DNA of 35,602 bases from Pseudomonadota bacterium (GTDB lineage: Bacteria > Desulfobacterota > JAPLJL01), in assembly GCA_026388655.1 (NCBI GenBank), contig JAPLJI010000181.1, positions 1-35,602 of the forward strand, given 5' to 3'. Positions 2,172 through 35,602 of the stretch are shown here, piece by piece. A program made the translations under genes and the position numbers. The stretch's first letter is position 1. Every line of letters starts with the position of its first letter. The notes beneath the pieces were generated by a model. The model did no database searches. It was not told the DNA's origin and worked only from the letters and a program-made list of their open reading frames with translations.

Positions 2172-3512
2172 ATGTTTAATAAGAAAATCTTAATTGTCTG
2201 CGGTTCGCTCCTGCTCCTCGGCCTGGCCGTTTCCGCCCGCGGGGAAAACCTGGGAGAAAAGGTCGAGCTTTCGGGCGTATTCCAGAACATTCTCCGCTTC
2301 CAGACCGACCGCGACTTCGACGGTTCCCATCCCAGTTACAACAAACCAGGTCAAACGGTGGGGGAATTCGTTACCTTCGTGAATCCCAAGCTGCAATACT
2401 CCATCAACCCGGAAACCTGGATTTTTTACGAATCCGAACTGGGGATGGATGCCTGGAGCCGGAACAACCCGGATTTCGCCACCGGTGAAAATAAAATGGC
2501 TCCCATTTTCAAGCAGCGTCAGTTCTACGGCGAAACCGAGTTCACCCCCAAGTTCTCCCTCCGGGTGGGCTACCAGCGTTTCGAGGACCCTTCCGGGCTT
2601 TTCCTCAACCACTGGCTCGGGGCGGCCAGCTCCCAGATCGCCACCGGCCCGGTGCTCCTGAATATAGCTTTTGGCGAGCTCCCCGATCAGACCCGCGAGG
2701 GTTTCGATCTGGACCGGATTAATTTCCATAACGATATCCTGGTCGGTTCGGTGACCGCGGCGCGGGAGCTTCCGGGCAACCTGAGCGTGGGGGGAGCGCT
2801 TTCCTATCTCTACGACGGGTCCGAGATTGACCATACCCGCTGGCTTTTCACTCCCGTCCTGAGCCTGCGAAAAAATCTCCGGGACCAGGAAATCGGCGGG
2901 GATATCGCCCTCCAATACGGTGAAGCCCAACTGGGGGCCTTCGGCGGAAACATCGAAAAGACCCTGGCCTGGGCCGCCCAGGGTTACGCCCGGCTCCGGC
3001 CCTCGCCCCTCCAGCTAGACCTGCAAGTCATGGCCTTAAGCCCGGATGATGATTACGACCATAACGGAAAAAATTACGCTTTCCTTTATTCGGGCAAATC
3101 CCGGGCCTCCACCATGATCCTGACCGAGGATCGAATCCGGGACTGGGGGGATAACCTGGATGAACTGCTCAGCGACCAAACCGGCGAATCCCGGGGTAAC
3201 TTCTTCCTTTTGAGAAGTGGGTTCCTGCTTCTGGACGGGAAAATCGGCTACCCTGTCACCCCGAAAATCACGCCCGCGTTGATCCTGGGGGCGGCGCTCA
3301 CCCTGGACCCCCATAACTCCCTGGGGAGCACCTTTGTCGGGACCGAGGCCGACCTGGATCTCCAGTACGCCCCCTCCCCCAGTATTAAAATCGACCTGGT
3401 CAACAGCTTCTTTTATCCCGGTAAAGCCGCCTCGGCCTACGTCAATGCCATCAAACTGGAAAACCAGCGCCCGCTTTACCGGCTGGTCACCTCCGTCAGT
3501 TTCCTCTTTTAA
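2172..3512 (+). CDS. Outer-membrane beta-barrel protein, porin-like
   Basis: The 446-residue product starts with a clear signal peptide: MFNKK, a hydrophobic stretch LIVCGSLLLLGLAVS, and a likely cleavage after SARG near residue 25. The rest alternates hydrophobic and polar residues in short strands rich in Tyr, Phe and Gly. It ends YRLVTSVSFLF, the terminal Phe being the recognition signature of barrels inserted by the BAM machinery. It is therefore probably a 16-18 stranded outer-membrane channel. No named porin family was recognised; DUF1302-like or alginate-export-like barrels are possibilities. It lies 101 bp after the GH5 gene on the same strand, which suggests uptake of products released by that enzyme, though a palindromic repeat separates the two. 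No strong ribosome-binding site is visible before the ATG. Confidence 0.8.
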   Translation: MFNKKILIVCGSLLLLGLAVSARGENLGEKVELSGVFQNILRFQTDRDFDGSHPSYNKPGQTVGEFVTFVNPKLQYSINPETWIFYESELGMDAWSRNNPDFATGENKMAPIFKQRQFYGETEFTPKFSLRVGYQRFEDPSGLFLNHWLGAASSQIATGPVLLNIAFGELPDQTREGFDLDRINFHNDILVGSVTAARELPGNLSVGGALSYLYDGSEIDHTRWLFTPVLSLRKNLRDQEIGGDIALQYGEAQLGAFGGNIEKTLAWAAQGYARLRPSPLQLDLQVMALSPDDDYDHNGKNYAFLYSGKSRASTMILTEDRIRDWGDNLDELLSDQTGESRGNFFLLRSGFLLLDGKIGYPVTPKITPALILGAALTLDPHNSLGSTFVGTEADLDLQYAPSPSIKIDLVNSFFYPGKAASAYVNAIKLENQRPLYRLVTSVSFLF

Positions 3513-3545
3513 CCAGAAAAATTCATTTAATATTTCCGAACACAT

Positions 3546-3666
3546 TGTAGTTGCCCGATTTACTTGTCCCGACTTCAGAGGGATTTATCCCGATACGGAA
3601 GGGATCGGGCGCTTTTGAAAAACGCCGATCCCCCCAGAGACGGGACAAGTGAATCGGCAGGCTACA
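3546..3666. repeat. Dispersed element with TGTAG...CTACA inverted ends, copy 1
   Basis: The left end at 3546-3573 reads TGTAGTTGCCCGATTTAC and continues to TTGTCCCGAC. The right end at 3639-3666 is an inverted copy matching at 22 of 28 positions. Between them is a strong hairpin (GGGATCGG...CCGATCCC). The left end recurs at 23197-23224 in the opposite orientation with one mismatch. It lies in the 354-bp gap between the barrel gene and tatA, where no coding sequence was found. No transposase is present, so it is a REP- or MITE-like unit. Confidence 0.7.
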
Positions 3667-3795
3667 ATAAAATCCGCCCAAGAAGGACGGAGGAACGGAT
3701 TCAATCGCTTTTTTCGGGTTTATATAACAACCGATACCGCTGGAAAGGTGAGGGGGAACTTTTTCTGTTTGGCGGTTGTCTAATGAAAAAGGTCT

Positions 3796-3823
3796 TTGAA
3801 AATCGGAAACCTTGGATTAGAAT
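3796..3823 (+). promoter_or_regulatory. Candidate sigma70-type promoter for tatA
   Basis: TTGAAA at 3796-3801 and TAGAAT at 3818-3823 are separated by 16 bp and lie about 45 bp upstream of the tatA start. The spacing and one-mismatch -10 box are acceptable. The call is by eye only. Confidence 0.4.
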
Positions 3824-3866
3824 ACTATCGGTTTCGAGGATTTATTAGTAAAAAAGGGAGGAAAAA

Positions 3867-4052
3867 ATGCTTGGCAATATTGGTCCGACTGAGTTAATCA
3901 TAATCCTGGTCATCGTCCTGATCATTTTCGGCGCGGGCAAGCTTCCCGACATCGGCACCGCCATCGGCAAGGGCATCCGCAACTTCAAAAAAGCCACCAA
4001 GGACGAGGACAAGGCCGCCCTCGAAGAAGGCAAGGACAAGGGCAAAGGGTAA
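3867..4052 (+). CDS. tatA: Twin-arginine translocase subunit TatA/TatE
   Basis: This 61-residue protein forms the membrane pore component of the Tat system, which exports folded proteins. It shows the family layout: a short N-terminus, a membrane helix at about residues 8-21 with a polar Glu at position 9, the FG hinge (F21, G22) followed by KLPDIG, an amphipathic helix ([14 protein letters not shown]), and a charged tail rich in Lys, Asp and Glu. The start is set by the strong GGGAGG at 3856-3861, five bases before the ATG. The gene is monocistronic, bounded by a candidate promoter and a terminator. TatB and TatC are not nearby. At 61 residues it is at the short end for TatA. TatB is unlikely given the short tail. 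Confidence 0.93.
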
Positions 4053-4102
4053 AGCGCATAGCGCAAAGGGCAGGGAGCTTCCTGCCGTCTGCCGGTTATT
4101 AG

Positions 4103-4130
4103 CCGCGGCCTCCGGGCCGCGGTTTTATTT
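4103..4130 (+). terminator. Rho-independent terminator after tatA
   Basis: A perfect 8-bp GC stem, CCGCGGCC at 4103-4110 and GGCCGCGG at 4115-4122, encloses a TCCG loop. It is followed by TTTTATTTTT. Confidence 0.85.
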
Positions 4131-4413
4131 TTGGGGGTTTATTGGGTTTTCAGAAACCCGGGGGGTAGGTTCTCGCGACCCGCACTCTTTTTACCCGGAT
4201 ACCAATAAACTCGATGACTCCTGATAATTGGATCCAACGAAGGCGAGGCCTAGCGGGCCCGCCGCCCGGGATTGCGTGATCGCGCACATTGTGCGGTTTA
4301 CCCTGAGCTCTGTCGAAGGGGGAGCGTCCATTCTTCGCAGCAGAGTTGCTTCGAAGGATAAAAAACCTGCCCCCCAAAAAATAAAAAAAGCTAACGGAGG
4401 AGGGAAGTCAGGT
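4131..4413. other. Noncoding interval with short palindromes
   Basis: No gene was recognised between the tatA terminator and the convergent gene ending at 4414. The stretch holds a small hairpin at 4144-4159 (GGGTTT/AAACCC) and the palindromic motif CCCTGAGCTCTGTCGAAGGG at 4301-4320, a sequence type often seen as a dispersed extragenic repeat. A second copy of the latter was not found in this window. Confidence 0.5.
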
Positions 4414-5190
4414 CTATTCTTCCCCGCCCTCTTTATGCTTCTTTTTCCCGAGCAGGAAGGCCGCCTCTTCCCGAACCTGAAGATTCAAACTTAAATCCCG
4501 GGAAACCTCCTCCAGGTCCGGCTGGAGCATGTATCCCAGGAGATTCCGGCTGACCTCCACCGGCGTGTGGGGATTTAAAATCAGGGTTCGTTTCACCCGG
4601 TAGCACTTGATCCAACGATGGTTCTCGAAAATCACCCGCAGGACCGCGCCCGGGATAGGGCGGCGGGAGGCGATCCGGATCACCTCGAGTTCAGTCAGGC
4701 GGGGGTTCTGGAGGATGTTGCGGATCACGGAAGGGTCGGAATCAAACAGGAGCTTTTCCAAAAGCAGGGTCCGCTTGCCCTTGGCCAGGCTTTTTTTCTC
4801 CCCCAGGGTCAGATACTCGAGACCGGCCGGGACTTCCAGGTCACCCGGGACCTGCCTTTCCCTTTCCGGATCACCCGGGGAAAAAAGTCGCAGGACCTCC
4901 AGGCAGCCGGTTTCCCGGGCCTGGAGAACGATTTCACTCACCCTCTCGGGACCGATCAGGCTCAGGAAAAATTCCGAATCGATCAGGCTGAAGTAAGCCT
5001 CCTGGTAGCGCGGCACTTTCCGCTCGGCCCGCTCCATGATGATCCGCACCACTTCCAGAAGCTCGGCCACCGGCAGGAGTCTTAAATATTCCGCCAGGAT
5101 GGCGGTCCGCATCCTGCGATCCTTGACCCCGAAAGCCCGCCCGACCACGCGCTCGGCGTTTTTTTCCGGAGAAGGCCTTTCGGATTTCAA
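4414..5190 (-). CDS. Uncharacterised alpha-helical (repeat-like) cytoplasmic protein
   Basis: I do not recognise this 258-residue protein. It has no signal peptide or membrane helix and is rich in Leu, Glu and Arg. Its middle part carries recurring helix pairs such as DSDPSVIRNILQNPRLTE and NPHTPVEVSRNLLG, resembling the short helical repeats of HEAT- or leucine-rich-variant scaffolds. The C-terminus is charged (GKKKHKEGGEE). The start shown is TTG, four bases after the upstream gene's stop. Its only Shine-Dalgarno-like bases sit very close to it. An internal ATG at residue 27 with AAGGA seven bases upstream is a credible alternative. The tight spacing implies co-transcription with the zinc-ribbon/DUF3426 protein, so a role linked to that protein is the best guess. 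Confidence 0.7.
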   Translation of the reverse strand: MKSERPSPEKNAERVVGRAFGVKDRRMRTAILAEYLRLLPVAELLEVVRIIMERAERKVPRYQEAYFSLIDSEFFLSLIGPERVSEIVLQARETGCLEVLRLFSPGDPERERQVPGDLEVPAGLEYLTLGEKKSLAKGKRTLLLEKLLFDSDPSVIRNILQNPRLTELEVIRIASRRPIPGAVLRVIFENHRWIKCYRVKRTLILNPHTPVEVSRNLLGYMLQPDLEEVSRDLSLNLQVREEAAFLLGKKKHKEGGEE

Positions 5191-25056: not shown

Positions 25057-26712
25057 TTGAAAACATCAGTAAGCGCAAAAGGGTTTCTAAATCGTCTGTA
25101 TGTTTTCCTGACCGCTTCCTTCCTCTTGGGCGGCATGATCCTTTCCTGCGGGTCCAAGGGCGTCGGGACGGCTCCCCCGGGGGCGGAAAAATGGCCGGTG
25201 GTGGTGATCGGGGCGGGGGCCGGCGGTCTCGGCGCCGGGGCCACCCTCGCTCAAAACGGGGTCAAGACCCTGGTTCTGGAACAGCACGACAAGCCCGGGG
25301 GCTACATGACCGCTTTCGAACGGGGCGACTATCGCTTCGAGGTATCCCTCCACATGATGGACGGCCTGGATGAGAACGGGACCACCCGGGGCGCTTTGAA
25401 AAAACTCGGCATCCTCGACCGGGTCAAGCCCATCAAGATCGAGCCCATCTACCGATTGGTATACCCCGACCTGACCCTTGATGTCCCTTCCGACCTGGCG
25501 GCCTACCGGAAAGTCCTGGGAGAGAAATTCCCCGGGTCAGCGGAAGGAATCAACCGGCTCTTGGATGAGCTTCTGGCGATCGGCTCGGCCACCGAGAAAC
25601 TGCAGAAATTGCAGGATCAGTTCTTTCTCCTCCGCTGGGTCAAATACCCCTTCGTCCCCCTGATGGCCTGGGACCTGATTAAAAACCGCAATGCCACGCT
25701 CCAGGAGATCGGGGACAGGTATATCAAGGACCCCAAGGCCAAGAGCACCGTCTTCCAGCTGGTCAATTTCCTGGGCCTCCCGGCCTCCCGGGCCAGCGGG
25801 GCTTATTTCGCGATCATGTGGGCTAGTTACCACAAGTACGGGGCGTATCACTTCCAGGGCGGCTCCCAGGCGGTCTCCAACGCCCTGGCCCAGGTGATCC
25901 AGGAAAAGGGCGGGGAGGTGCGGCTCAACACGCGGGTTAAGAAGATCCTGATCCAGGAAGGTAAAGCCGTCGGGGTCGAGACCGAGAAAGGGCAGAAAAT
26001 CTACGCCGACTATGTCATATCCAACGCCAATGGCTACTCAACTTACATTGACCTGGTCGGGGAGCAGAATCTCTCCTCCAAATTCGTCAAATACGTGAAG
26101 GGGCTGGAACCGGGCATCTCCGTGACCGAGGTTTACCTGGGCCTGAACCTGGACCTCGCCAAGCTCGGCCTGGGCGGGATTGGAGAGATCTTCTATAACC
26201 CGGATTACGACGCCGAAGGCCAGTGGAAAAACAACCTGGCCATGAAAATCGACGATAAGGTTTCCCTCGGGATCGCCCTCTATTCCAATACCGATCCCAC
26301 CTGCGCCCCGCCGGGCAAGTCCGTGGTGGTTCTCACCCTGATCACCCCCTACGATTGGAAAAACCGCTGGCAGTCCGGCGAAGGCGGGGAAGCCTACCAT
26401 AACCTGAAAAATCAAGTCGCCGACCGGATGATTGCCATCGCGGAAAAAACGATCCCGGGGATCAGGAATGCCATCGAGGTGATGGAGGTCGGATCCCCCC
26501 TGACGATGGAGCGCTACACCCTGAACTATAAGGGTTCCTTCATGGGCTGGGCACCCACGCCCGCGCAGAGCATGCTCAAGCGGATGCGGTTCACCGGGCC
26601 GATCAAGAACCTCTACCTGGCCGGCTCCTGGAGCTTCCCCGGTGGAGGCCAGTCGGCCAGCCTGATCTCCGGCCAGATGACCGGCCAGATGGTTTCGGAC
26701 CGGATTGATTAA
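25057..26712 (+). CDS. FAD-dependent oxidoreductase (CrtI/retinol-saturase-like) with lipoprotein signal
   Basis: The 551-residue protein starts at a TTG. Residues 10-30 are hydrophobic (LYVFLTASFLLGGMILS) and end at a lipobox Cys31 (ILSCGSKG), so it reads as a lipoprotein. There is no twin arginine. Directly after is a Rossmann FAD-binding strand, VVVIGAGAGGLGAG (48-61), with the acceptor Glu in LVLEQHDKPGGYMTAFERG. The C-terminus YLAGSWSFPGGGQSASLISG is the second FAD contact of the phytoene-desaturase/all-trans-retinol 13,14-reductase family. Such enzymes desaturate, saturate or isomerise polyenes and other lipids. An exported flavoprotein of this family is unusual. It would have to bind FAD after Sec export, or the signal acts as a membrane anchor. 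The substrate is unknown. Confidence 0.8.
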   Translation: MKTSVSAKGFLNRLYVFLTASFLLGGMILSCGSKGVGTAPPGAEKWPVVVIGAGAGGLGAGATLAQNGVKTLVLEQHDKPGGYMTAFERGDYRFEVSLHMMDGLDENGTTRGALKKLGILDRVKPIKIEPIYRLVYPDLTLDVPSDLAAYRKVLGEKFPGSAEGINRLLDELLAIGSATEKLQKLQDQFFLLRWVKYPFVPLMAWDLIKNRNATLQEIGDRYIKDPKAKSTVFQLVNFLGLPASRASGAYFAIMWASYHKYGAYHFQGGSQAVSNALAQVIQEKGGEVRLNTRVKKILIQEGKAVGVETEKGQKIYADYVISNANGYSTYIDLVGEQNLSSKFVKYVKGLEPGISVTEVYLGLNLDLAKLGLGGIGEIFYNPDYDAEGQWKNNLAMKIDDKVSLGIALYSNTDPTCAPPGKSVVVLTLITPYDWKNRWQSGEGGEAYHNLKNQVADRMIAIAEKTIPGIRNAIEVMEVGSPLTMERYTLNYKGSFMGWAPTPAQSMLKRMRFTGPIKNLYLAGSWSFPGGGQSASLISGQMTGQMVSDRID

Positions 26713-26855: not shown

Positions 26856-28406
26856 CTATATGTGCACCGGCCTTTTATCCACGATGTAATCCGCCTTGAT
26901 CCCCGTCCTCTCGAAAAGCTCGGCCTCGAGCTTCTTCTCGTCGTCTTCCCAGATGATCTGGTCCGGGGTAACCTCGGTCACGCCCTTGACCTTTTCTTTC
27001 AAGCGGCGTTCCAGGGCCTCCTTCTTCGCGTCCGGCTTGGGAGTGATTCTCAGGACCAGTACGTCCCGGGAGAACTGGTCCCCGGGAATCTCCTTGTCGA
27101 TCACCACCTGGAAGCTGGATACCCCCGGCATATCACGGACGGTGGCGATCAGGTCGGCGAGTGACACCCGGGTTCCCTTGATCTTGGTGAAATCCTTGAC
27201 CACCCGCTGGATCGGACCCGTGATCCGAGGATAGGTGTACCCGCACTTCGGGCACTTGTCCCATCTCATCCCGCCCCGGATGAGATCCCCGGTGTAGTAG
27301 CGGATGAATACCGTCCCCCGCCAGCCGATGTGGCTGAAGGTTAAAACCCCCGGTTCACCCTCCGGCACCGGTTTTTTGGTCTCCGGGTCCAGAAGCTCCC
27401 ACAGATAAAATTTCGGGTTCAGGTGAATCCCGGTCTCCTCGTCGCACTCCATGAAAGCCCACTTCGACTCGGTCATCCCCATTCCCTCGATCACCCGGAA
27501 GCGGGGATGCGCCCCCAGTATTTTCGCGAGGTCCTTGAAATACTTTCTCTGCTCTTTGGTCATGGGCTCCCCGGCGCAGAGCCCCCCCTCAAACTGGGGC
27601 AGGTCGGGGATCTCCCCCTTCTCGCGCATCTCCACCGCCTTCCGAAGCCAATAGGTGAAATATGAAGGCATGGTGGAGATGTGGTTGAACTTTCCCTGGG
27701 CGAAGAGCCGGATCTGGTGCTCGGTCGGGATGACCTTTCCCCCAAAGGTGTCAAAGGAGGAAAAACCCGTCAGCATCTTGGTGATCACCGCCTGGAAAAA
27801 CGCGAGGTGGGGCGCCCCCGGGAAGAGGTTGAAGAGCCGGGTGTCCCAACGGACCAGGGGGTCATCGGGATGCCGGGTGTCCGGTTCGAGATAAACGTTG
27901 GCGCAGAGTTCGGGGAGAACGTTGCGGAACTCGTAGTGGGTGTAGAGCGCCGGGGTGGGATCGCCGGTGGAGCCGGCGCTGGCGTGAAAATGCATCGGCA
28001 TCCACTCCAGGGCCACCCGGCGGCCCACCTTGCCCTCCTTAAAACTCATCTTCCGCCAGAGCCCGACGTAATCCTTGGGATGGTTAAAGATGGCTTGCAG
28101 CACGTACTTGAGGATAAGCTTCTTGGAGATGTAGTCGGTATCGTAAAGGGCCATCTTCTCCCGGCCGGGGAACTTAGGCTGGAGAATGAAGGCCAGGTTA
28201 TCCTTCCGATAGTCGGCTTTTTCGATAATCGGTATTTTTTGGATATCTGAATAGTCCCGCAGACCGGAGGGGTTGATACCGTTGTCTTTATAAAGTTTCC
28301 GCAGATAGGGATGATACGGGTAAACATAATTCTTGATATATTTAATGAGATTTTTAACCGCCCAATCCTTCTGCTTTTCCCCCGGCCAGCGATAAAAATT
28401 GCTCAT
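26856..28406 (-). CDS. Phenylacetate-CoA ligase-like AMP-forming CoA ligase (PaaK family)
   Basis: The 516-residue enzyme resembles PaaK-type adenylate-forming ligases that convert an acid, ATP and CoA to an acyl- or aryl-CoA. The ATP-binding loop is HASAGSTGDPTPALYT (141-156), a variant of SSGTTGKPT. The acetyl-adenylate region is GMGMTESKWAFMECD, and RGTVFIRYYTGDL is the A8-like hinge motif. CPKCGYTYPRITG corresponds to the PaaK CxCG...PRI segment. It is somewhat longer than PaaK (about 430-440), mainly in the N-terminal half, so the substrate may be larger than phenylacetate. AAGGAG seven bases before the ATG is a strong ribosome-binding site. It ends a run of seven same-strand genes dealing mostly with CoA thioesters. 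Confidence 0.85.
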   Translation of the reverse strand: MSNFYRWPGEKQKDWAVKNLIKYIKNYVYPYHPYLRKLYKDNGINPSGLRDYSDIQKIPIIEKADYRKDNLAFILQPKFPGREKMALYDTDYISKKLILKYVLQAIFNHPKDYVGLWRKMSFKEGKVGRRVALEWMPMHFHASAGSTGDPTPALYTHYEFRNVLPELCANVYLEPDTRHPDDPLVRWDTRLFNLFPGAPHLAFFQAVITKMLTGFSSFDTFGGKVIPTEHQIRLFAQGKFNHISTMPSYFTYWLRKAVEMREKGEIPDLPQFEGGLCAGEPMTKEQRKYFKDLAKILGAHPRFRVIEGMGMTESKWAFMECDEETGIHLNPKFYLWELLDPETKKPVPEGEPGVLTFSHIGWRGTVFIRYYTGDLIRGGMRWDKCPKCGYTYPRITGPIQRVVKDFTKIKGTRVSLADLIATVRDMPGVSSFQVVIDKEIPGDQFSRDVLVLRITPKPDAKKEALERRLKEKVKGVTEVTPDQIIWEDDEKKLEAELFERTGIKADYIVDKRPVHI

Positions 28407-28432: not shown

Positions 28433-28550
28433 TATCGGTGTCGGTGTCTGTGTCGGGGTTTTTCCCTTTGACCTTTCACCTTTGAGCTTTGACCTGTCCT
28501 TTGCTCCCTGCGCCTTGCTCCTTGCGCCTTGCTCTCAGTTTGATAATGAG
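28433..28550. repeat. Low-complexity pyrimidine-rich text between PaaK-like and subtilase genes
   Basis: GGTGTC/TGTGTC hexamer-like units (28436-28456) are followed by CTTTGACC, CCTTTCACC and CCTTGCGCC units. The last part is also the 3' end of the subtilase frame. The exact 17-bp match to 20244-20260 lies here at 28478-28494. Confidence 0.7.
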
Positions 28551-30836
28551 GATCGGGCCGAGAAAAAACGCCAGGCCCGCCAGCAACACCAGGCCCTCCG
28601 GTTCCCGGTCACCTTGGGAAACTGGCAGAATCCCGCACCCGCACGCCGGGCTTTTATATACCTGCAGCTCGCTGGTCAGGGTGAACTGGCCAAACCCCGA
28701 AACGCGCTTTACCGCCAGGTAAAATTTTCCGCTCTGTTCCGGGCGAAAACCGCTGATTTCTTCGTCCTCATATCCGTCCCGGGCGCTGTAAGCGGCAATC
28801 AACGGCTCACCGTTCTCATCCGGGGCTCCCTCGTAGAGATATAGGTCAAAATCCGCCTGGGTCGGGTTCTGCAGGGTGAAGGTATATTCGTTGGCCCGGT
28901 CCAGCTCCAGGGCGCGGGCCCAGACCCTTTTACCCCCCAGTTTCGCGTCAAGATAAGCCTGGGCCGGATTCCCCATCCCGTAGGTGAGGGTCGCTGCTTC
29001 CAGGGCGGCGTCGGGATTGATCCGGCCGTAGCCTTCCCGGTTGTCCTTGGGGGAAACGGCCCGGCCCAGGGGGGGAACGTAAGCGTCAATCTCTCCCTGT
29101 TTGATCTCGCTGGCGGTCATCAGGATCAACTGCTTGGCCCATTTCGGGGCCTCCGGGGTCCCGTGGATCCAGTTTCCCCTGGCCTCGGCCAGAAGGGCCA
29201 CCAGCCCGGAAACAAAGCCGGACGCCTGGGAAGTGCCGATCTTGCCCTGGTAGTCGTTGGGAAAACGATCGGAAAAAAATTGCACCTTTTTACTCGTGTC
29301 CTCCGACGAATCGGTATCGTTGGCGTCGGCCGAGAAAATGTAGCTCAAGTCCTGTCCCCCGCCCCCGGGGGCGACCACATCCGGCTTGATCGGCTTCCGA
29401 TTTCCCCCCGGGCTGGAATAATCGGTCAGCTTGTCCTCCAGGGTCATCGCCCCCACCGCGATTGAGAGGGGGGCGGTCCCCGGCGATCCGATGTTGACAT
29501 CCCGGTCGGTCCCGGCGGCCGTGATAAAGGCAATCCCCCCTTCGACCAGGTTTTCCACCGCGGTATCAATGGTGGCGGAAAGCGTATCAAAGGTCAGGCT
29601 GGCGTTGACGGCCACGATCCCCAGGGATTCCGCCTGGCTGGTGATTGACTCGAGAGCCTGGACGAAGTAAATCGCGTTCCCGTTCCCTTCGTTATCGAGA
29701 ATCTTGTAAGCCGCGATTTCCGCCCCGGGGGCGACCCCGCGCATGAGGCTGAAGCCGTCGTTGTAACTATCGTAGGGGATATCCACCTCGCCGACATAAA
29801 AGCTCCCCGCGCTCTGAACCGGGTCCAGGTCATCGGTGGAGAAAATGGCGTAAATAACCCCGTCGCCCTGGAGGTCGACGCTCTTTATCTCCGTACCATC
29901 GGCCGTGATTTTCTCATCCATGATTCGATTCTGGTTTTCGTCTTCGACGGTAAAATAGTAGCTTCCCCTCACTTTTTCCGCCCAGAGGCGGGCCTGCAGG
30001 GACCGGACTGAAGCCGTAAGGACTGGTATCGGTTCGATGTAACCGGATCCCTCCTGGCTGGGAAAAAAGCCGGGGAAAGAAACCGGGACGTTTTCGCTCC
30101 CCACCGCTTCCCCGCTCCCGGCGACTATCCCAGAGACATGGGTGCCGTGGCCGTTCTTGTCAAAGGGATCGACCGCGGGGGGATTTTCGGGGTGGTCGGG
30201 GTCGCCGACCACATCCTCCCAGTATTTTATCCGCCCCGCCAAATCGGGATGACTGTCATCGATGCCGGTGTCCAAGACCGCCACCACCTGGCCCGAACCG
30301 GTGTAACCGGTTCCCAGGCCCCCGCCGCCCTTCCATACCTCCCGGACCCGGATGTGGTTGACCGCCCGGAAAAGTGCGGACCGGGACCGCGGAATCCCCT
30401 CCACCCAGACCACCCGCTCGGATTCTTGAATGAGGTTGGCAATCTCCGCCCGGGGCAGGCGGACCGCCAGCGCGTAAACCAGATCCTGCCATTTCCCCAG
30501 TATCGAGCCGCCCTGGCCAAGTATCTTTTCCAGGTCCGACGCCTCCGGCGGGGCGGAAAGGTCAATTAAAACCTCAATGGGTTCGTCCGGACGGGTCGGA
30601 AGGTTTGGGATGCTGGTGATAAAAAAGTCCGCCGGGCCGGAGGGAGAAAGCCCGAGATCCAGCTCCAGGAGGTCTGAAATCTTGTTGTTATTCCGGTCCA
30701 GGGCGGCCGAGTCGGGGGTTACGATTCGGGGATCGGACGCTCCGGCCGAAGCCGGAAGAGCAAAGAGCAAAGCGTTTACCCCGAGCAAAGCCGAGAGGCA
30801 AAGCGCAAAGCGGAATAAAAAATCTATTTTTCGCAT
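28476..30836 (-). CDS. Subtilisin-like serine protease (S8) with PPC domain and C-terminal Cys/TM sorting-type tail
   Basis: The 786-residue protein has a signal peptide ending PASAG near residue 32. A calcium-like motif DRNNNKISD (47-55) follows, then an inhibitor-like prodomain. The S8 catalytic residues are D189 (VVAVLDTGIDDSHPD), H230 (NGHGTHVSG) and S536 (GTSQASG). About 125 residues are inserted between the His block and GVAPGAEIAAYKI. The oxyanion position reads AAGT (T443) instead of AAGN. A pre-peptidase C-terminal-like beta domain lies at about 630-730. The end has a Cys-Gly motif (ACGCGILP), a membrane helix (LVLLAGLAFFLGPILII) and a basic cluster (KLRARRK), resembling MYXO-CTERM-style sorting signals. 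The last 19 residues are translated from intergenic-type low-complexity DNA. Its place among CoA-metabolism genes is unexplained. Confidence 0.88.
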   Translation of the reverse strand: MRKIDFLFRFALCLSALLGVNALLFALPASAGASDPRIVTPDSAALDRNNNKISDLLELDLGLSPSGPADFFITSIPNLPTRPDEPIEVLIDLSAPPEASDLEKILGQGGSILGKWQDLVYALAVRLPRAEIANLIQESERVVWVEGIPRSRSALFRAVNHIRVREVWKGGGGLGTGYTGSGQVVAVLDTGIDDSHPDLAGRIKYWEDVVGDPDHPENPPAVDPFDKNGHGTHVSGIVAGSGEAVGSENVPVSFPGFFPSQEGSGYIEPIPVLTASVRSLQARLWAEKVRGSYYFTVEDENQNRIMDEKITADGTEIKSVDLQGDGVIYAIFSTDDLDPVQSAGSFYVGEVDIPYDSYNDGFSLMRGVAPGAEIAAYKILDNEGNGNAIYFVQALESITSQAESLGIVAVNASLTFDTLSATIDTAVENLVEGGIAFITAAGTDRDVNIGSPGTAPLSIAVGAMTLEDKLTDYSSPGGNRKPIKPDVVAPGGGGQDLSYIFSADANDTDSSEDTSKKVQFFSDRFPNDYQGKIGTSQASGFVSGLVALLAEARGNWIHGTPEAPKWAKQLILMTASEIKQGEIDAYVPPLGRAVSPKDNREGYGRINPDAALEAATLTYGMGNPAQAYLDAKLGGKRVWARALELDRANEYTFTLQNPTQADFDLYLYEGAPDENGEPLIAAYSARDGYEDEEISGFRPEQSGKFYLAVKRVSGFGQFTLTSELQVYKSPACGCGILPVSQGDREPEGLVLLAGLAFFLGPILIIKLRARRKEQGAGSKGQVKAQR

Positions 30837-30966: not shown

Positions 30967-31419
30967 TTACTTCTCCTCTGGCTTGAAATACTTGATGTCA
31001 AAAAGATCGCCCTTGGGCTCCGGGTTCCAGACCGCCTGGACCCGCATGTTCGGCTTGATCTTCTCGAACTTCACTTCCCCGAGCAGATGGCTGAAGAGGT
31101 TGTCCGTCCCGTCCAGCTGGACGAGCCCGTAGGCGTAGGGAGGGTTGGTGGGCTGGCCGGGGAAGGAAAGATTGACCACGGTATAGGTGTTGAGGACCCC
31201 ATGGTCGCTGACGGGAATCCACTGTTTGTCCGTGGGGGCAAAACAGACCCCGCAGACCTCGACGGGAGGAACCAGGACCTTTTTGCACTTGGTACAGCGA
31301 ACCCCATAGAGCTTTTTATGATTCTTGGTTTCGAGGAAAAACCGGGACAGGTCCCGGCCATATACCCAGCGGTAAGGAACGTAATTGGTCCGCTTCACGC
31401 TCTTGATTATCTCGCTCAT
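30967..31419 (-). CDS. DUF35 zinc-ribbon/OB-fold protein A (thiolase partner)
   Basis: About 150 residues. A rubredoxin-like zinc ribbon (VRCTKCKKVLVPPVEVCGVC, spacing C-x2-C-x10-C-x2-C) precedes an OB-fold (VLNTYTVVNLSFPGQP, YAYGLVQLDGTDNLFSHLLG). DUF35 proteins form complexes with thiolase-fold enzymes and shape the acyl-CoA site; BbsA and the DUF35 part of ChsH2 are known examples. The start is placed at the ATG at 31417-31419, not at the ATG 15 bases upstream. The Shine-Dalgarno GGGGGAGG lies five bases before the inner ATG and would be inside the coding region otherwise. The paralogue's leader has ATA at the outer position. It shares domain order, CxxC spacing and 5' leader with DUF35 protein B. 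Confidence 0.88.
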   Translation of the reverse strand: MSEIIKSVKRTNYVPYRWVYGRDLSRFFLETKNHKKLYGVRCTKCKKVLVPPVEVCGVCFAPTDKQWIPVSDHGVLNTYTVVNLSFPGQPTNPPYAYGLVQLDGTDNLFSHLLGEVKFEKIKPNMRVQAVWNPEPKGDLFDIKYFKPEEK

Positions 31420-31424
31420 CTCAT

Positions 31425-31432
31425 CCTCCCCC
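31425..31432 (-). promoter_or_regulatory. Shine-Dalgarno that decides the DUF35-A start
   Basis: On the minus strand GGGGGAGG ends five bases before the ATG at 31417-31419. The aligned DUF35-B leader has AGGGGAGG in the same place. Confidence 0.8.
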
Positions 31433-31495
31433 ATTCAGTTTCGGGTTTCGGGTTTAAAGTTATAAACAGAAAATTTCACAAAACATCAGAAACGC
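31433..31495. repeat. Duplicated leader, copy A (upstream of DUF35-A)
   Basis: This stretch aligns with 32137-32200: ATTCAGTTTCGGGTTTCG, AAAGTTATAAA and ATCAGAAACGC are shared in order, with small gaps. Copy B has one extra TTCGAGT unit. The rest of the gap up to 31600 is low-complexity text (CGTCAATCGTCATTCGTCAA and CCGCAATCCGCATTCCGCAA). Confidence 0.8.
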
Positions 31496-31600: not shown

Positions 31601-32122
31601 TTAAACGACTTCGAAATGGTCCAGGTCGAGGAGATACCCTTCCCTCTGCTCGCCCCAGACCGCCTTGACCTTGGACCCGACCTTCAGTTTCCCCAGGTTC
31701 TTCTCCCCTTTAACCATATGGATGAAATCGGTATCCGCCCCCTCGATCCGAACGGCCACCAGCGCGTAGGGGGGATCGGGCGGCCAGAGCAAGGGATGAT
31801 CAACCAGCTTGGTCGGGGCGATGGCCTTCGACACCACCTCGGGGTCGGGCTTGGGCGGCCAGAGGTTGGCCCGGACCACGGTAAAGCTTTTCACCACCCC
31901 GGCATCTGGCAGTTCCACCTGGTCTTCCGGCTTGAACCCGTAGTAGCAGGCCGTGCAGATATCGGTGGCGGGGGCGTAAACCTTTTTGCATTCGGGGCAG
32001 CGAAAACCCAGGATCTTCTTTTCCTTCAGCCCGCCGAGAAACCGGCCGTAGATATCCCCCGGGGTCCAGCGGTAAGGAACCGAGATGTTCCCTTCCAAAA
32101 CCCGGTATTGATTCGACTCCAT
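31601..32122 (-). CDS. DUF35 zinc-ribbon/OB-fold protein B (thiolase partner)
   Basis: The 173-residue protein has the same order as DUF35-A: an N-terminal helix with VPYRW, a zinc ribbon FRCPECKKVYAPATDICTAC (C-x2-C-x10-C-x2-C), and an OB-fold (VVKSFTVVRANLWPP, PYALVAVRIEGADTDFIHMV, KVKAVWGEQREGYLLDLDHF). It is about 23 residues longer, mainly through a Pro-rich loop (LWPPKPDPEVVSKAIAPTK) between strands of the OB-fold. AGGGGAGG with good spacing precedes the ATG. It lies 112 bp after the thiolase-fold protein 1 gene and is likely that protein's partner. The two DUF35 genes are probably an old tandem duplication that has diverged. Confidence 0.9.
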   Translation of the reverse strand: MESNQYRVLEGNISVPYRWTPGDIYGRFLGGLKEKKILGFRCPECKKVYAPATDICTACYYGFKPEDQVELPDAGVVKSFTVVRANLWPPKPDPEVVSKAIAPTKLVDHPLLWPPDPPYALVAVRIEGADTDFIHMVKGEKNLGKLKVGSKVKAVWGEQREGYLLDLDHFEVV

Positions 32123-32234: not shown

Positions 32235-33395
32235 CTATTTCTCACTCCCAAAAATCATGATCGTGTGGAACTGGATGGCCCCGCCCCAGCCGTGTCCAAG
32301 GGAAAGCTTGGCGCCCTGGACCTGCCGGGCCCCGGCCTTCCCCATCACCTGCAGGGCCGCCTCGGCCTTCCGGAACATGGCGGCGGCGCCGATCGAATTG
32401 GCGCAGAGAACCCCTCCGGAGGGATTGGAGGGAAGGCTCCCGGTCATCGCGGTGATACCTTTGTCGAAAAGTCTTCCGCCCTCGCCCCAGTCGCAAAGCT
32501 TGATGCCTTCATACCAGACCAGCTCCTGCCAGGAAAAAGCGTTGTAGAGCTCAATCACGTCCAGTTCCTTCAAAGGGTCCTTGATCCCCGCCTGCTTGTA
32601 GGCAATCTCGGCCGCCTTCCGGAGCTCGATCGGGACCGCCCAGTCGCGGTCCGCGTAATAAACCCCAGCCGAGACCGCCGCGGTGCCCTTGACCCAGGCG
32701 GGTCTATCGGTGATTTTTTTGACCCGGTCCTCCGCGACGAAAATCATGGCGCAGGCCGCGTCCGAGGTAGGGCACATGTCGGCCAGCCGCAAGGGGTAGC
32801 AGAGCATCGGGGTGCTCTTGGCCATCTCGAAGTTGTAGCCGGGGATCTTGAGCTGGGCGTAGGGATTGTTCATGGCGTTCTGCCGGTTCTGCACCGCCGC
32901 CCGGATGCCGTAATCCTCGTCGTAACCGTACTTGGACATGTAACGGAGCGACTGCAGGGCCACCGCCGAGGGCGCCCCGGTGTTGAACTGCCGCCCGATG
33001 ATCGGGTCATAAACCGTTCCCAGTCCGATCTGGGCCGAGGCGGTCTCGTTCAGCTTGTTCCCGGAGACCGCCATGACCACGTCGAACATCCCGGAGGCCA
33101 CCAGGTAATAGCCCCCGATCGCCGCGGAGCCGCCCACCGTTCCCCCGGTATGGATCCGGAAAACCGGCTTCAGGTAACCGCCGCAGGCCTCGGCCAGCCA
33201 TTTCTCCGGGTGATTGATCCCCTCGAAATACTCCGGGGAATGCCCGAAGGAAATCGCCTGGATGTCCCGATGGGTAAGACCGCAATCCGCGAGGGCCCGG
33301 GTTACCGCCAGCCGATAAAGGGCCGGCATGCTGCAATCCCAGTGGGATTTGTTTTCGGTCATCCCGACCCCGACCACCGCTACCCTTCGTCCCAT
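32235..33395 (-). CDS. Thiolase-fold protein 1, SCP2-type, catalytic Cys not conserved
   Basis: The 386-residue protein has the thiolase fold (VAVVGVGMTE, LVASGMFDVVMAVSG, LKELDVIELYNAFSW, SNPSGGVL). In classical members the nucleophilic Cys sits about 13 residues before the LVASGM block. Here the aligned segment is HTGGTVGGSAAIGG and the position is Gly (about G85). The helix motif usually VHDAF/NEAF is LYNAF with Tyr284, and the usual GHPxG loop is CANSIG (331-336). H368 in GHGWGG is kept. Such changes are seen in thiolase relatives that pair with DUF35 proteins, some acting as aldolases. AAGGAGG six bases before the ATG is a strong ribosome-binding site. It directly precedes DUF35-B. Reaction and substrate are unknown. 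Confidence 0.85.
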   Translation of the reverse strand: MGRRVAVVGVGMTENKSHWDCSMPALYRLAVTRALADCGLTHRDIQAISFGHSPEYFEGINHPEKWLAEACGGYLKPVFRIHTGGTVGGSAAIGGYYLVASGMFDVVMAVSGNKLNETASAQIGLGTVYDPIIGRQFNTGAPSAVALQSLRYMSKYGYDEDYGIRAAVQNRQNAMNNPYAQLKIPGYNFEMAKSTPMLCYPLRLADMCPTSDAACAMIFVAEDRVKKITDRPAWVKGTAAVSAGVYYADRDWAVPIELRKAAEIAYKQAGIKDPLKELDVIELYNAFSWQELVWYEGIKLCDWGEGGRLFDKGITAMTGSLPSNPSGGVLCANSIGAAAMFRKAEAALQVMGKAGARQVQGAKLSLGHGWGGAIQFHTIMIFGSEK

Positions 33396-33478
33396 TAAAA
33401 ACCTCCTTAGTTTCTCAAAATAAATCCGGTGTCCGAAACAAATTAGTATAGTGTGTGCAAAATCCCTCTAAATTGATT

Positions 33479-33591
33479 GTCATTCCGGGCTTGACTAAGC
33501 CTGCCCCGGACTTGCTCCGGGGGAATCCATCCTCCTTCTTCTGGATTCCCGCTGGAGTTTATCCCGCACTCTGATGCGGGACGGGAATGAC
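33479..33591. repeat. Dispersed palindromic repeat, GTCATTCC...GGAATGAC type, copy 2
   Basis: A 113-bp imperfect palindrome lies between the two thiolase-fold genes. It begins GTCATTCCGGGCTTGAC and ends GGGACGGGAATGAC. It is inverted and longer relative to 2087-2147, with an extra inner hairpin (ATCCCGCA...TGCGGGA). Confidence 0.85.
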
Positions 33592-33631
33592 AGCTTAAGA
33601 AAAAATGTTACTCGCAGTAACTTAGGCGTTG

Positions 33632-34885
33632 TTATTTGCGCCTAGCCTTTTTTCTCCTGGTTGGCCTGGCCTTAGTTTTAACCTTAACCTTAGCCTTAGC
33701 CTTAAACTGTTTTTTGACCTTGACCGGTTTCGGCTTGGCTTCGTCCCGACCGAGGACATAGACGATATTCGACTGGAGGCAGAAACCGCTGGTCGCGTGC
33801 ACCAGGCCCCGGCGGATATCCTTTTTGATCTGGTATTCTCCCGCTTGCCCGGTAAGCTGGCGGGCCGCCTCGACCATTCGAATCAGTCCGGCTACGAAAA
33901 TCGGGTTCCCGCAGAGCGCCCCTCCCGAGGCGTTCACGGGATAAGCCCCGTCAAGATTCGCAATTCCTTTCTCTACCAGCTTCCTTCCTTCCCCGGGTTC
34001 GGCCAGGCCCAGTCCCTCGTAAAGCATCAACTCGGCGAAGGAAAAAGGCTCGTAAACCTCGGCGAAATCGGTTTCTTTCCGCGGGTTTTTGATCCCCGCC
34101 TGGGCGTAGGCCATCTGGGCCGCCCGGGCCAGCGACTCGGGCCGGGCCAGGTCCCGGTGCCCCAGGTAATAAAGGTCGTGGTTGTAGCCCACCCCCTCGA
34201 TCCAGACCGGGTCAGGGGTGATTTTCCGGGCCAGGTCGCGGTTGGCCAGAATCAGGGCGCAGGCCCCCTCCGATCTCGGGGAGGCGTCGGCCAGCTTGAT
34301 CGGGGAAGCCAGAACCGGCGATTTCAAAACCTCCGCCTCGCTGATCGGGATCCGGACCTGGGTATTGGGGTTTTTCACCCCGTTGGCCCGGTTCTTCACC
34401 ACCACCTTGGCCGCCGGCCGCTCGTCCAGGTTATACCGGGAAAGGTAGCTCCGGGCCTGGAGGGCGAAGGCCGAAACCATCTCCACCCCCAGGGGGCGGA
34501 GAAGGAAGGGATCGGTCATCATCCAGGAATAAAACTGGGGAGGGGTGTCCACTCGGCCGTGGGCCACAATCAGCGCCGTCTTATGGTGGCCGGTGAGCAG
34601 CCGGAGATAGGCGTAGAGAGCGGCGTAAGCGCCGTCCTCTTCCACCTTGGATTCCTCCTTCATGAAAGCCCCCATGGACTCGACCACGAAAACGTTGGAG
34701 ATGCTGGCCCCGTCCATCGTATCACAGCTCGCGCTGATGACCGTGTCGATGTCCCCGATGGAAAGCCCGCTCTTGGAGAGGGCCGCCGCCACGGTCCGGG
34801 AGATCATTTCGGTTTTGTGGATCCGCTCGTCCCGCTCCACGATCGGGGATTGGGCCCAACCCACAATCGCCACCTTTCGTTCCAC
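33632..34885 (-). CDS. Thiolase-fold protein 2 with lysine-rich tail, catalytic Cys not conserved
   Basis: The 417-residue protein is a second SCP2-type thiolase relative (VAIVGWAQSP, TALIVAHGR, KETDFAEVYEPFSFAEL, VNASGGALCGNP). The Cys nucleophile position falls in KVEEDGAYAALYAY, with no Cys. Tyr278 occupies the VHDAF position, and the GHPxG loop is CGNPI. H363 in GLVHATSG is a possible remaining catalytic His. Residues 383-417 are an added tail with 19 Lys or Arg in 35, encoded by AAGGCT/AAGGTT hexamers. The start is GTG with GAAGGAGG six bases upstream. It is upstream of thiolase-fold protein 1 on the same strand. It may pair with one of the two DUF35 proteins. Confidence 0.85.
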   Translation of the reverse strand: MERKVAIVGWAQSPIVERDERIHKTEMISRTVAAALSKSGLSIGDIDTVISASCDTMDGASISNVFVVESMGAFMKEESKVEEDGAYAALYAYLRLLTGHHKTALIVAHGRVDTPPQFYSWMMTDPFLLRPLGVEMVSAFALQARSYLSRYNLDERPAAKVVVKNRANGVKNPNTQVRIPISEAEVLKSPVLASPIKLADASPRSEGACALILANRDLARKITPDPVWIEGVGYNHDLYYLGHRDLARPESLARAAQMAYAQAGIKNPRKETDFAEVYEPFSFAELMLYEGLGLAEPGEGRKLVEKGIANLDGAYPVNASGGALCGNPIFVAGLIRMVEAARQLTGQAGEYQIKKDIRRGLVHATSGFCLQSNIVYVLGRDEAKPKPVKVKKQFKAKAKVKVKTKARPTRRKKARRK

Positions 34886-35253: not shown

Positions 35254-35602
35254 TTAGTACGTGCCGATGATGTCCCGGGCGATGATCATCCGCTGGATCT
35301 CGCTCGCCCCTTCGCCGATCTCACCGAGCTTGGCGTCGCGGTAGAGCCTCTCCACCTTGTATTCCTTGATGTAGCCGTAGCCGCCGTGGATCTGGACCGC
35401 GTCCGAGGCGATCTTGGTGCAGGTCTCGGAGGCGTAAAGCTTGGCCACCGAGGCCAGGGTACTGTCGGGAATGCCCTGGTCGAGCTTCCAGGCCGCCTCG
35501 TAGGTGACCAGCCGCGCGCCTTCCGTGGCCATCTTCATCTCGGCGATCTTGAAGTGGATCTCCTGGAAACTGGCGATGGTCTTGCCGAAGGCCTCCCGCT
35601 CG
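35254..35602 (-). CDS. Acyl-CoA dehydrogenase, C-terminal part (5' end outside window)
   Basis: The frame is open to the window edge, so only the last 115 codons are present. They form the C-terminal helical domain of an FAD-dependent acyl-CoA dehydrogenase, which introduces the alpha-beta double bond into an acyl-CoA and passes electrons to ETF. It reads [20 protein letters not shown] and then [34 protein letters not shown] and [12 protein letters not shown]. The QIHGGYGY motif and EGxSEIQR are diagnostic. The family's catalytic Glu normally sits in this last motif (I/YEGTSEIQ), so E of GEG is the candidate. Substrate range cannot be judged from this part. It ends [10 protein letters not shown] at 35254, then a repeat-filled gap leads to the thiolase-fold genes. 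Confidence 0.93.

Follow-up and report, generated by a model that had tools for sequence, protein, structure and literature searches.

A window of 35,602 nucleotides (the whole stretch of DNA analysed here, from contig JAPLJI010000181.1 of a Pseudomonadota bacterium) carries two neighbouring minus-strand genes, P2 and P1, that encode thiolase-fold proteins, followed by the genes of two DUF35 proteins, DUF35-a and DUF35-b. We propose that P1 and P2 form a heteromeric thiolase-fold retro-aldol C–C lyase that would work with both DUF35 proteins in the manner of the Ltp3–Ltp4 pair, with P1 as the predicted catalytic subunit and P2 as its degenerate partner, and from the sequence comparisons set out below we give this reading a probability of about 0.6. 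The catalytic Cys and both catalytic His residues of SCP2-type thiolases are gone from P1 and P2. A heteromer with a single active subunit is suggested by the constant pairing of P2 with P1, the co-variation of the two families and the retention of a catalytic signature in P1 only. The locus reads, in minus-strand gene order:

35254–35601, minus strand: C-terminal part of an acyl-CoA dehydrogenase (Pfam Acyl-CoA_dh_1, 141.7 bits), directly upstream of P2 and truncated at the window end
33632–34885, minus strand: P2, 417 residues; upstream thiolase-fold subunit, Ltp4-like and degenerate (D84, G85, Y278, N327)
33635–33739, minus strand: Lys/Arg-rich C-terminal tail of P2 (residues 383–417)
32235–33395, minus strand: P1, 386 residues; downstream thiolase-fold subunit, Ltp3-like and predicted to be catalytic (K76, G85, Y284, A286, N333)
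31601–32122, minus strand: DUF35-a, OB-fold/zinc-ribbon partner (Pfam OB_ChsH2_C, 30.7 bits), with C-x2-C-x10-C-x2-C, CPECKKVYAPATDICTAC
30967–31434, minus strand: DUF35-b, second OB-fold/zinc-ribbon partner (Pfam OB_ChsH2_C, 52.8 bits; zf-ChsH2, 26.6 bits), CTKCKKVLVPPVEVCGVC

Substitutions at the thiolase active site

P1 and P2, which share 33% sequence identity, are SCP2-thiolase-fold proteins, as seen from their Pfam Thiolase_C_1 matches of 118 and 114 bits, respectively (cut-off 28). The predicted model of P1 has a mean predicted local distance difference test score (pLDDT) of 92.6 and superposes on the aldolases Ltp2 (Z 46.4; root-mean-square deviation 2.3, 367 residues aligned) and Sal (Z 46.0; 2.5, 374), and that of P2 (pLDDT 90.4) superposes on Sal (Z 47.6; 2.5, 368) and Ltp2 (Z 45.7; 2.4, 360). 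To assign the catalytic columns, the P1 profile was aligned to the solved thiolases 6esq, 7yvy and 6hsj. In this alignment, G85 of P1 occupies the column of the nucleophilic Cys, Y284 that of the HDCF/HDAF His and N333 that of the GHP/GHA His, and the same columns hold G85, Y278 and N327 in P2. The corresponding motifs are found in the translations as FRIHTGGTVGGSAAIGG, IELYNAFSWQ and GGVLCANSIGAA in P1, and as SKVEEDGAYAALYAY, AEVYEPFSFA and GGALCGNPIFVA in P2. In the P1 model, Gly85 begins the helix 84–100, Tyr284 follows the strand 280–282 and Asn333 precedes the helix 335–351. An earlier note on this DNA had reported that both proteins lack a Cys in the nucleophile segment and have a replaced GHPxG loop, and both statements hold. 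Its third statement, that Tyr takes the place of His in the VHDAF-type motif, is correct for the two window proteins, yet this Tyr is atypical of the P2 family.

Conservation was counted over 67 non-redundant homologues of P1 and 78 of P2. In the P1 family, Gly85 and Asn333 are invariant (67/67 each) and Tyr284 is missing only once (66/67), so the active-site substitutions of P1 are not due to chance. The column of the HDCF Cys, position 286, holds Pro, Ala or Gly, with Ala in the window protein and Pro in most of its relatives. The P2 family, on the other hand, has Tyr at the 278 column in only 10 of 78 members, the others carrying Ser, Asp, Thr, Cys, His and further residues; its nucleophile column holds Cys in 1/78, and an acidic residue precedes that column in 97%. 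A comparison set was drawn up from solved structures, single thiolase-fold proteins and additional relatives belonging to the same phylum; in it, Tyr at position 284 is found in none of the 66 proteins with Cys85 and in 19 of the 23 with Gly85, Ltp2 and Sal included. Loss of the nucleophile thus goes hand in hand with acquisition of the Tyr. Two single thiolase-fold proteins have exchanged Cys for Gly and retain the HDAF and GH(A/F) His residues, an apparent intermediate state; they are encoded in the same genome as the window, on contigs C28 (24260–25441; 6243–7454 of locus L010) and C155 (4524–5726 of locus L019), and they adjoin or overlap DUF35 proteins.

A further position of interest lies nine residues ahead of the former nucleophile (33168–33170 in the P1 gene), where Lys or Arg76 is present in 92 of 93 P1s and in most P2s, and, within the comparison set, in 18/23 Gly85 proteins versus 9/66 Cys85 proteins. 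As a replacement for the Cys, this residue was considered and rejected, given that nine Cys-bearing proteins have it as well and Sal has Asn. Because of these exceptions, and because the rows of the comparison set are not phylogenetically independent, we treat Lys/Arg76 as a lead only.

A conserved P2–P1 pair related to Ltp3–Ltp4

The P2–P1 unit recurs in well over 100 other places in a nearly fixed order. A P2-seeded set, assembled from a scan of GTDB genomes together with loci of the same genome and of plasmids, contains 93 P2s, 91 of which adjoin a P1 at a median distance of 9 bp, and the two exceptions sit at contig ends. Conversely, a P1-seeded search of 118 genomes yields 57 strong P1s: the paired search places a P2 upstream of 54 of them, closer inspection reveals a diverged P2 for another two, and the sole unpaired P1 stands at a contig start. 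In a mirror-tree comparison of 61 pairs, the two distance matrices correlate with r = 0.80, a value reached by none of 2000 permutations. One or two DUF35 proteins accompany the pair, in agreement with the earlier note, and at the window locus this is borne out by the Pfam matches. The genome itself holds four P2–P1 pairs (contigs C93, C28, C185 and C176), whose P1 copies are 37–43% identical to the P1 of the window and thereby closer to it than its own P2 is; a second genome of the genus has all four pairs as well, and a third has the four P2s. These observations fit P2 and P1 being the degenerate and the active subunit, respectively, of one putative heteromer. KS-CLF of type II polyketide synthases and PqsBC follow the same logic within the superfamily, combining a catalytic subunit with a degenerate paralogue; unlike P1 and P2, neither of which has the Cys, their catalytic subunit keeps it and forms C–C bonds.

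The closest precedent of the pair is Ltp3–Ltp4 rather than the single-subunit Ltp2, and the locus, which is present four times over in its genome, is distantly related to that genetically known pair. In Nocardia farcinica, a homologous gene run within a steroid cluster encodes F420_Rv3520c, a 340-residue protein with two OB_ChsH2_C stretches, a PRK07937 protein (596 bits) and a PRK08313 protein (750 bits), and continues with a P450 and then a steroid 3-ketoacyl-CoA thiolase. We take this order to correspond to Rv3520c–Rv3521–Rv3522(ltp4)–Rv3523(ltp3) of Mycobacterium tuberculosis. Nocardia Ltp3 has the P1 signature K76, P77, G85, E282, Y284 and N333, and the P1 of the window in turn carries the Ltp3 active-site signature (Gly85, Tyr284, Asn333 and Lys76–Pro77); aligned, the two read HKPGGEYANEQQ (window P1, G/Y/A/N) and RKPAGEYPNEQQ (Nocardia Ltp3, G/Y/P/N). 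Both systems place Ltp4 or P2 before Ltp3 or P1, include DUF35 partners, and combine a Gly/Tyr/Pro-or-Ala/Asn site in Ltp3/P1 with a degenerate site in Ltp4/P2. They differ in that the DUF35 partners are two separate genes after the pair in the window and fused before the pair in Nocardia and Streptomyces, in that the present genome holds four modules, and in that both window proteins score below the NCBIfam cut-offs. The presence of two DUF35 domains in the actinobacterial protein speaks for two such units to each P2–P1 pair. In a tree of the fold, P1 and P2 lie together on one side of a 99% branch, opposite the Cys-bearing thiolases and the Ltp2/Sal/4u4e clade; within their side, which comprises bacteria and archaea, P1 and P2 mostly fall into groups of their own, and the P2 of the window clusters with the Ltp4 rows (Shimodaira–Hasegawa-like approximate likelihood ratio test, SH-aLRT, 91). 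Genetic work has shown that ltp3 and ltp4 are essential for degrading branched, not straight, sterol side chains (PMC6273163). Ltp3 and Ltp4 have been termed aldol-lyases (PMC4761994), and a review describes them as a heteromeric aldol-lyase that cuts C24–C25 (PMC6678751). No steroid genes were recognised among the neighbours scanned, a whole-genome steroid pathway not having been searched for.

Proposed reaction and competing explanations

Ltp2 and Sal, both deposited under a lipid-transfer protein name, have been shown to be aldolases, with Tyr294 and Tyr302, respectively, experimentally identified as the bases, and the Sal–Shy complex is an α–β–β–α assembly (PMC12329534). The Ltp2–ChsH2 steroid aldolase (6ok1) and the Sal–Shy bile-acid aldolase (9myr) share with the window proteins the thiolase fold, Gly in place of the nucleophile, the Tyr base and a DUF35 partner. 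Both window DUF35 proteins carry the C-x2-C-x10-C-x2-C (C4) zinc knuckle of the Ltp2-partner type, in contrast to the C3H1 zinc finger of the Sal system, and Sal resembles P1 in having an amide residue at the GHP-His position (Gln352 versus Asn333). Unlike the P1–P2 pair, either aldolase has a single kind of thiolase-fold subunit, and Ltp2 belongs to a separate clade. Additionally, the oxyanion His296 of Ltp2 and the essential Cys304 of Sal (in YDCY) correspond to Ala or Pro in P1. The benzoylsuccinyl-CoA thiolase BbsAB (7pxp) and the thiolase/DUF35/HMG-CoA synthase complex 6esq likewise have a DUF35-linked SCP2-type thiolase fold with one kind of thiolase subunit; 6esq, however, retains the thiolase Cys and both His residues, and BbsB retains the HDAF and GHP His residues. 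Assignment as a BbsB-like thiolase was rejected, as the two thiolase-fold proteins reach 102.7 and 94 bits against 750 for the BbsB equivalog of NCBIfam, and DUF35-b reaches 32.3 bits against an equivalog cut-off of 250 for BbsA. The suggestion in the earlier note of a retro-aldol C–C lyase like Ltp2 points to the right comparison, the Ltp2/Sal type, with Ltp3–Ltp4 as the closer precedent, and the interpretation it offered is partly supported overall.

The locus probably functions in C–C bond cleavage, the likely reaction being retro-aldol cleavage of a β-hydroxyacyl-coenzyme A (CoA). The substrate is most likely β-branched, with a tertiary alcohol that blocks ordinary thiolysis. In the mechanism we envisage, the complex would be arranged as DUF35–P1–P2–DUF35, a hetero version of the Sal–Shy assembly; a hydratase, together with the acyl-CoA dehydrogenase encoded nearby, would make the β-hydroxyacyl-CoA, and P1 would bind this product. 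Tyr284 of P1 would then remove the proton of the β-hydroxyl group, the role played by Tyr294 in Ltp2 and Tyr302 in Sal, and the Cα–Cβ bond would be cleaved to give an acyl-CoA enolate and a ketone or aldehyde. Gly85 would free the space formerly taken by the thiolase Cys, Asn333 together with backbone amides would help to hold the enolate, and P2 would serve as a structural, pocket-shaping partner. More tentatively, P1–P2–DUF35 could constitute a third, widespread class of thiolase-fold C–C lyases apart from Ltp2 and Sal, with a Tyr base, no known proton donor and an obligate pseudo-enzyme partner that may lend the missing group, Lys/Arg76 being a candidate. Such a class would cleave β-branched acyl chains in a wide range of bacteria and archaea, well outside the sterol-degrading actinobacteria; we regard this broader proposal as possible, though less likely than not.

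Several observations weigh against the heteromeric lyase. The top fold match of both subunits is the archaeal acetoacetyl-CoA thiolase in 6esq (Z 56.2 for P1 and 54.3 for P2), not Ltp2 or Sal. P1 scores 377.8 bits against the PRK08313 cut-off of 514 and P2 232 bits against the PRK07937 cut-off of 419, so the window proteins are relatives, not members, of the Ltp3 and Ltp4 subfamilies. The second catalytic residue of each characterised aldolase is replaced in P1, Tyr344 of Ltp2 by Asn333 and Cys304 of Sal by Ala286. At the locus itself, the gap between P2 and P1 is 236 bp, above the family median, and no hydratase gene stands beside this copy. Across the family, many P2–P1 modules show just one DUF35 protein, and a few P2-like singletons occur without a neighbouring P1 or DUF35 (3037–4248 of locus L181 and 3805–4980 of locus L180). 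These singletons are possibly homomeric or non-enzymatic offshoots.

The earlier note had also raised thiolysis through a new Cys at residues 325–331, and C331 of P1 and C325 of P2 are indeed located in the loop that stands in for GHP; a P1 subclade of 17/67 moreover has a Cys immediately before G85. This subclade, which comprises Smithella, Methanolliviera and relatives (loci L045, L047, L048 and others), reads TCGSTG or similar and still keeps Gly85, Tyr284 and Asn333, and position 84 in the P1 of the window is Gly. C331 is present in 23/67 P1s (34%; mostly Ser, Gly or Ala in the others) and C325 in 1/78 P2s (1%). The most Cys-rich column of P1, C208 (42/53), holds Cys in 6hsj as well, a Cys-bearing thiolase, that of P2 reaches 37/52, and neither family has an invariant Cys. 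A thiolase with a relocated Cys, which would also be without the thiolase His residues, is rejected on account of this low conservation and is highly improbable. The occurrence of two thiolase-fold and two DUF35 proteins in a single gene run, together with Y278 at the base position of P2, could instead suggest two separate lyases, each served by a DUF35 partner of its own, that process one substrate in sequence, as the earlier note proposed in the form of two successive cleavages. However, P2 and P1 of the same two lineages stand side by side in well over 100 places, as fixed halves of one module, their trees co-vary, the Tyr is missing from 68 of 78 P2 family members with the rest of the P2 site variable, only P1 retains the catalytic signature, and degradation of the same branched substrates requires Ltp3 as well as Ltp4 (PMC6273163). 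The pairing and the degeneracy of P2 led us to reject successive lyases, an arrangement we regard as quite unlikely.

The heteromeric lyase has also to be weighed against a reaction in the building direction, namely aldol or Claisen condensation or C-acylation as in the DUF35-linked acyltransferases PhlABC and MucABC, which share the fold and related partners (PhlC, Z 51; MucABC, Z 50); the flexirubin/PaaK-type AMP-ligase downstream of the locus is consistent with such a role. The PhlC-type acyltransferase, however, has a Cys, mutated by its authors (C88S in 9skm), whereas P1 has no conserved Cys, and the neighbours of the modules are mainly β-oxidation genes, which makes synthesis unlikely, if the least unlikely of these alternatives. 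On a par with successive lyases, and thus also quite unlikely, is a CoA-ester or lipid binding or transfer module without C–C bond chemistry. The loss of all thiolase catalytic residues and the lipid-transfer protein names of relatives in NCBIfam would agree with it, yet G85, Y284 and N333 are strictly conserved at the former active site, and Ltp2 and Sal bear the same kind of name and are shown aldolases (PMC12329534).

Genomic surroundings and implications

The surroundings of the P2–P1 modules are mainly of the β-oxidation type. Of about 85 loci, 37 have an acyl-CoA dehydrogenase near the module, 15 an AMP-ligase, 11 a β-keto acid cleavage enzyme (BKACE), 10 a MaoC hydratase and 9 an enoyl-CoA hydratase; for scale, this genome holds only 27 acyl-CoA dehydrogenase domains in 3.56 Mb. 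In a same-genus relative (L025), two complete acyl-CoA dehydrogenases precede P2 (970–2133 and 2161–3309). The BKACE neighbours include 1496–2467 of locus L026 and ten other loci, several of them from Dehalococcoidia. Taken together, these recurrent neighbours (acyl-CoA dehydrogenases, both hydratase types, BKACE and CoA ligases) point to no single substrate.

Beyond the DUF35 genes, the minus strand of the window goes on to encode a subtilase-family protease (26856–28406) and a FlxY/PaaK-like AMP-ligase (28476–30836), and a similar ligase is found near modules in Natrinema (L024) and at L081. Further along, a CrtI/carotenoid-isomerase-like FAD oxidoreductase is encoded at 25057–26712 on the plus strand, and this protein cluster recurs near P2–P1 modules at seven loci (L037, L040, L042, L050, L059, L078 and the window); this recurrence may be a hint of isoprenoid-like substrates. 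The C-terminal tail of P2 has 17 Lys or Arg residues among its final 30 and is modelled with low confidence; it is a feature of the window-type P2 in all three members of the genus, and the remaining P2s of the set lack it.

In the literature we found, the assignment of Ltp3–Ltp4 is a genetic one, and we came across no solved structure of an Ltp3–Ltp4-type pair. The present locus and its relatives provide a large sequence set that points to the likely catalytic subunit and to residues suited for mutation. The P2–P1 pair is old and widespread in bacteria and archaea, Smithella and Methanolliviera among them; this wide spread, together with an active site unlike that of either characterised aldolase, is what gives the pair its value as a test object. 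If P1–P2 does cleave β-branched acyl-CoAs, it would help to explain how the alkyl branches that block thiolysis are bypassed in sterols, isoprenoids and branched hydrocarbons.

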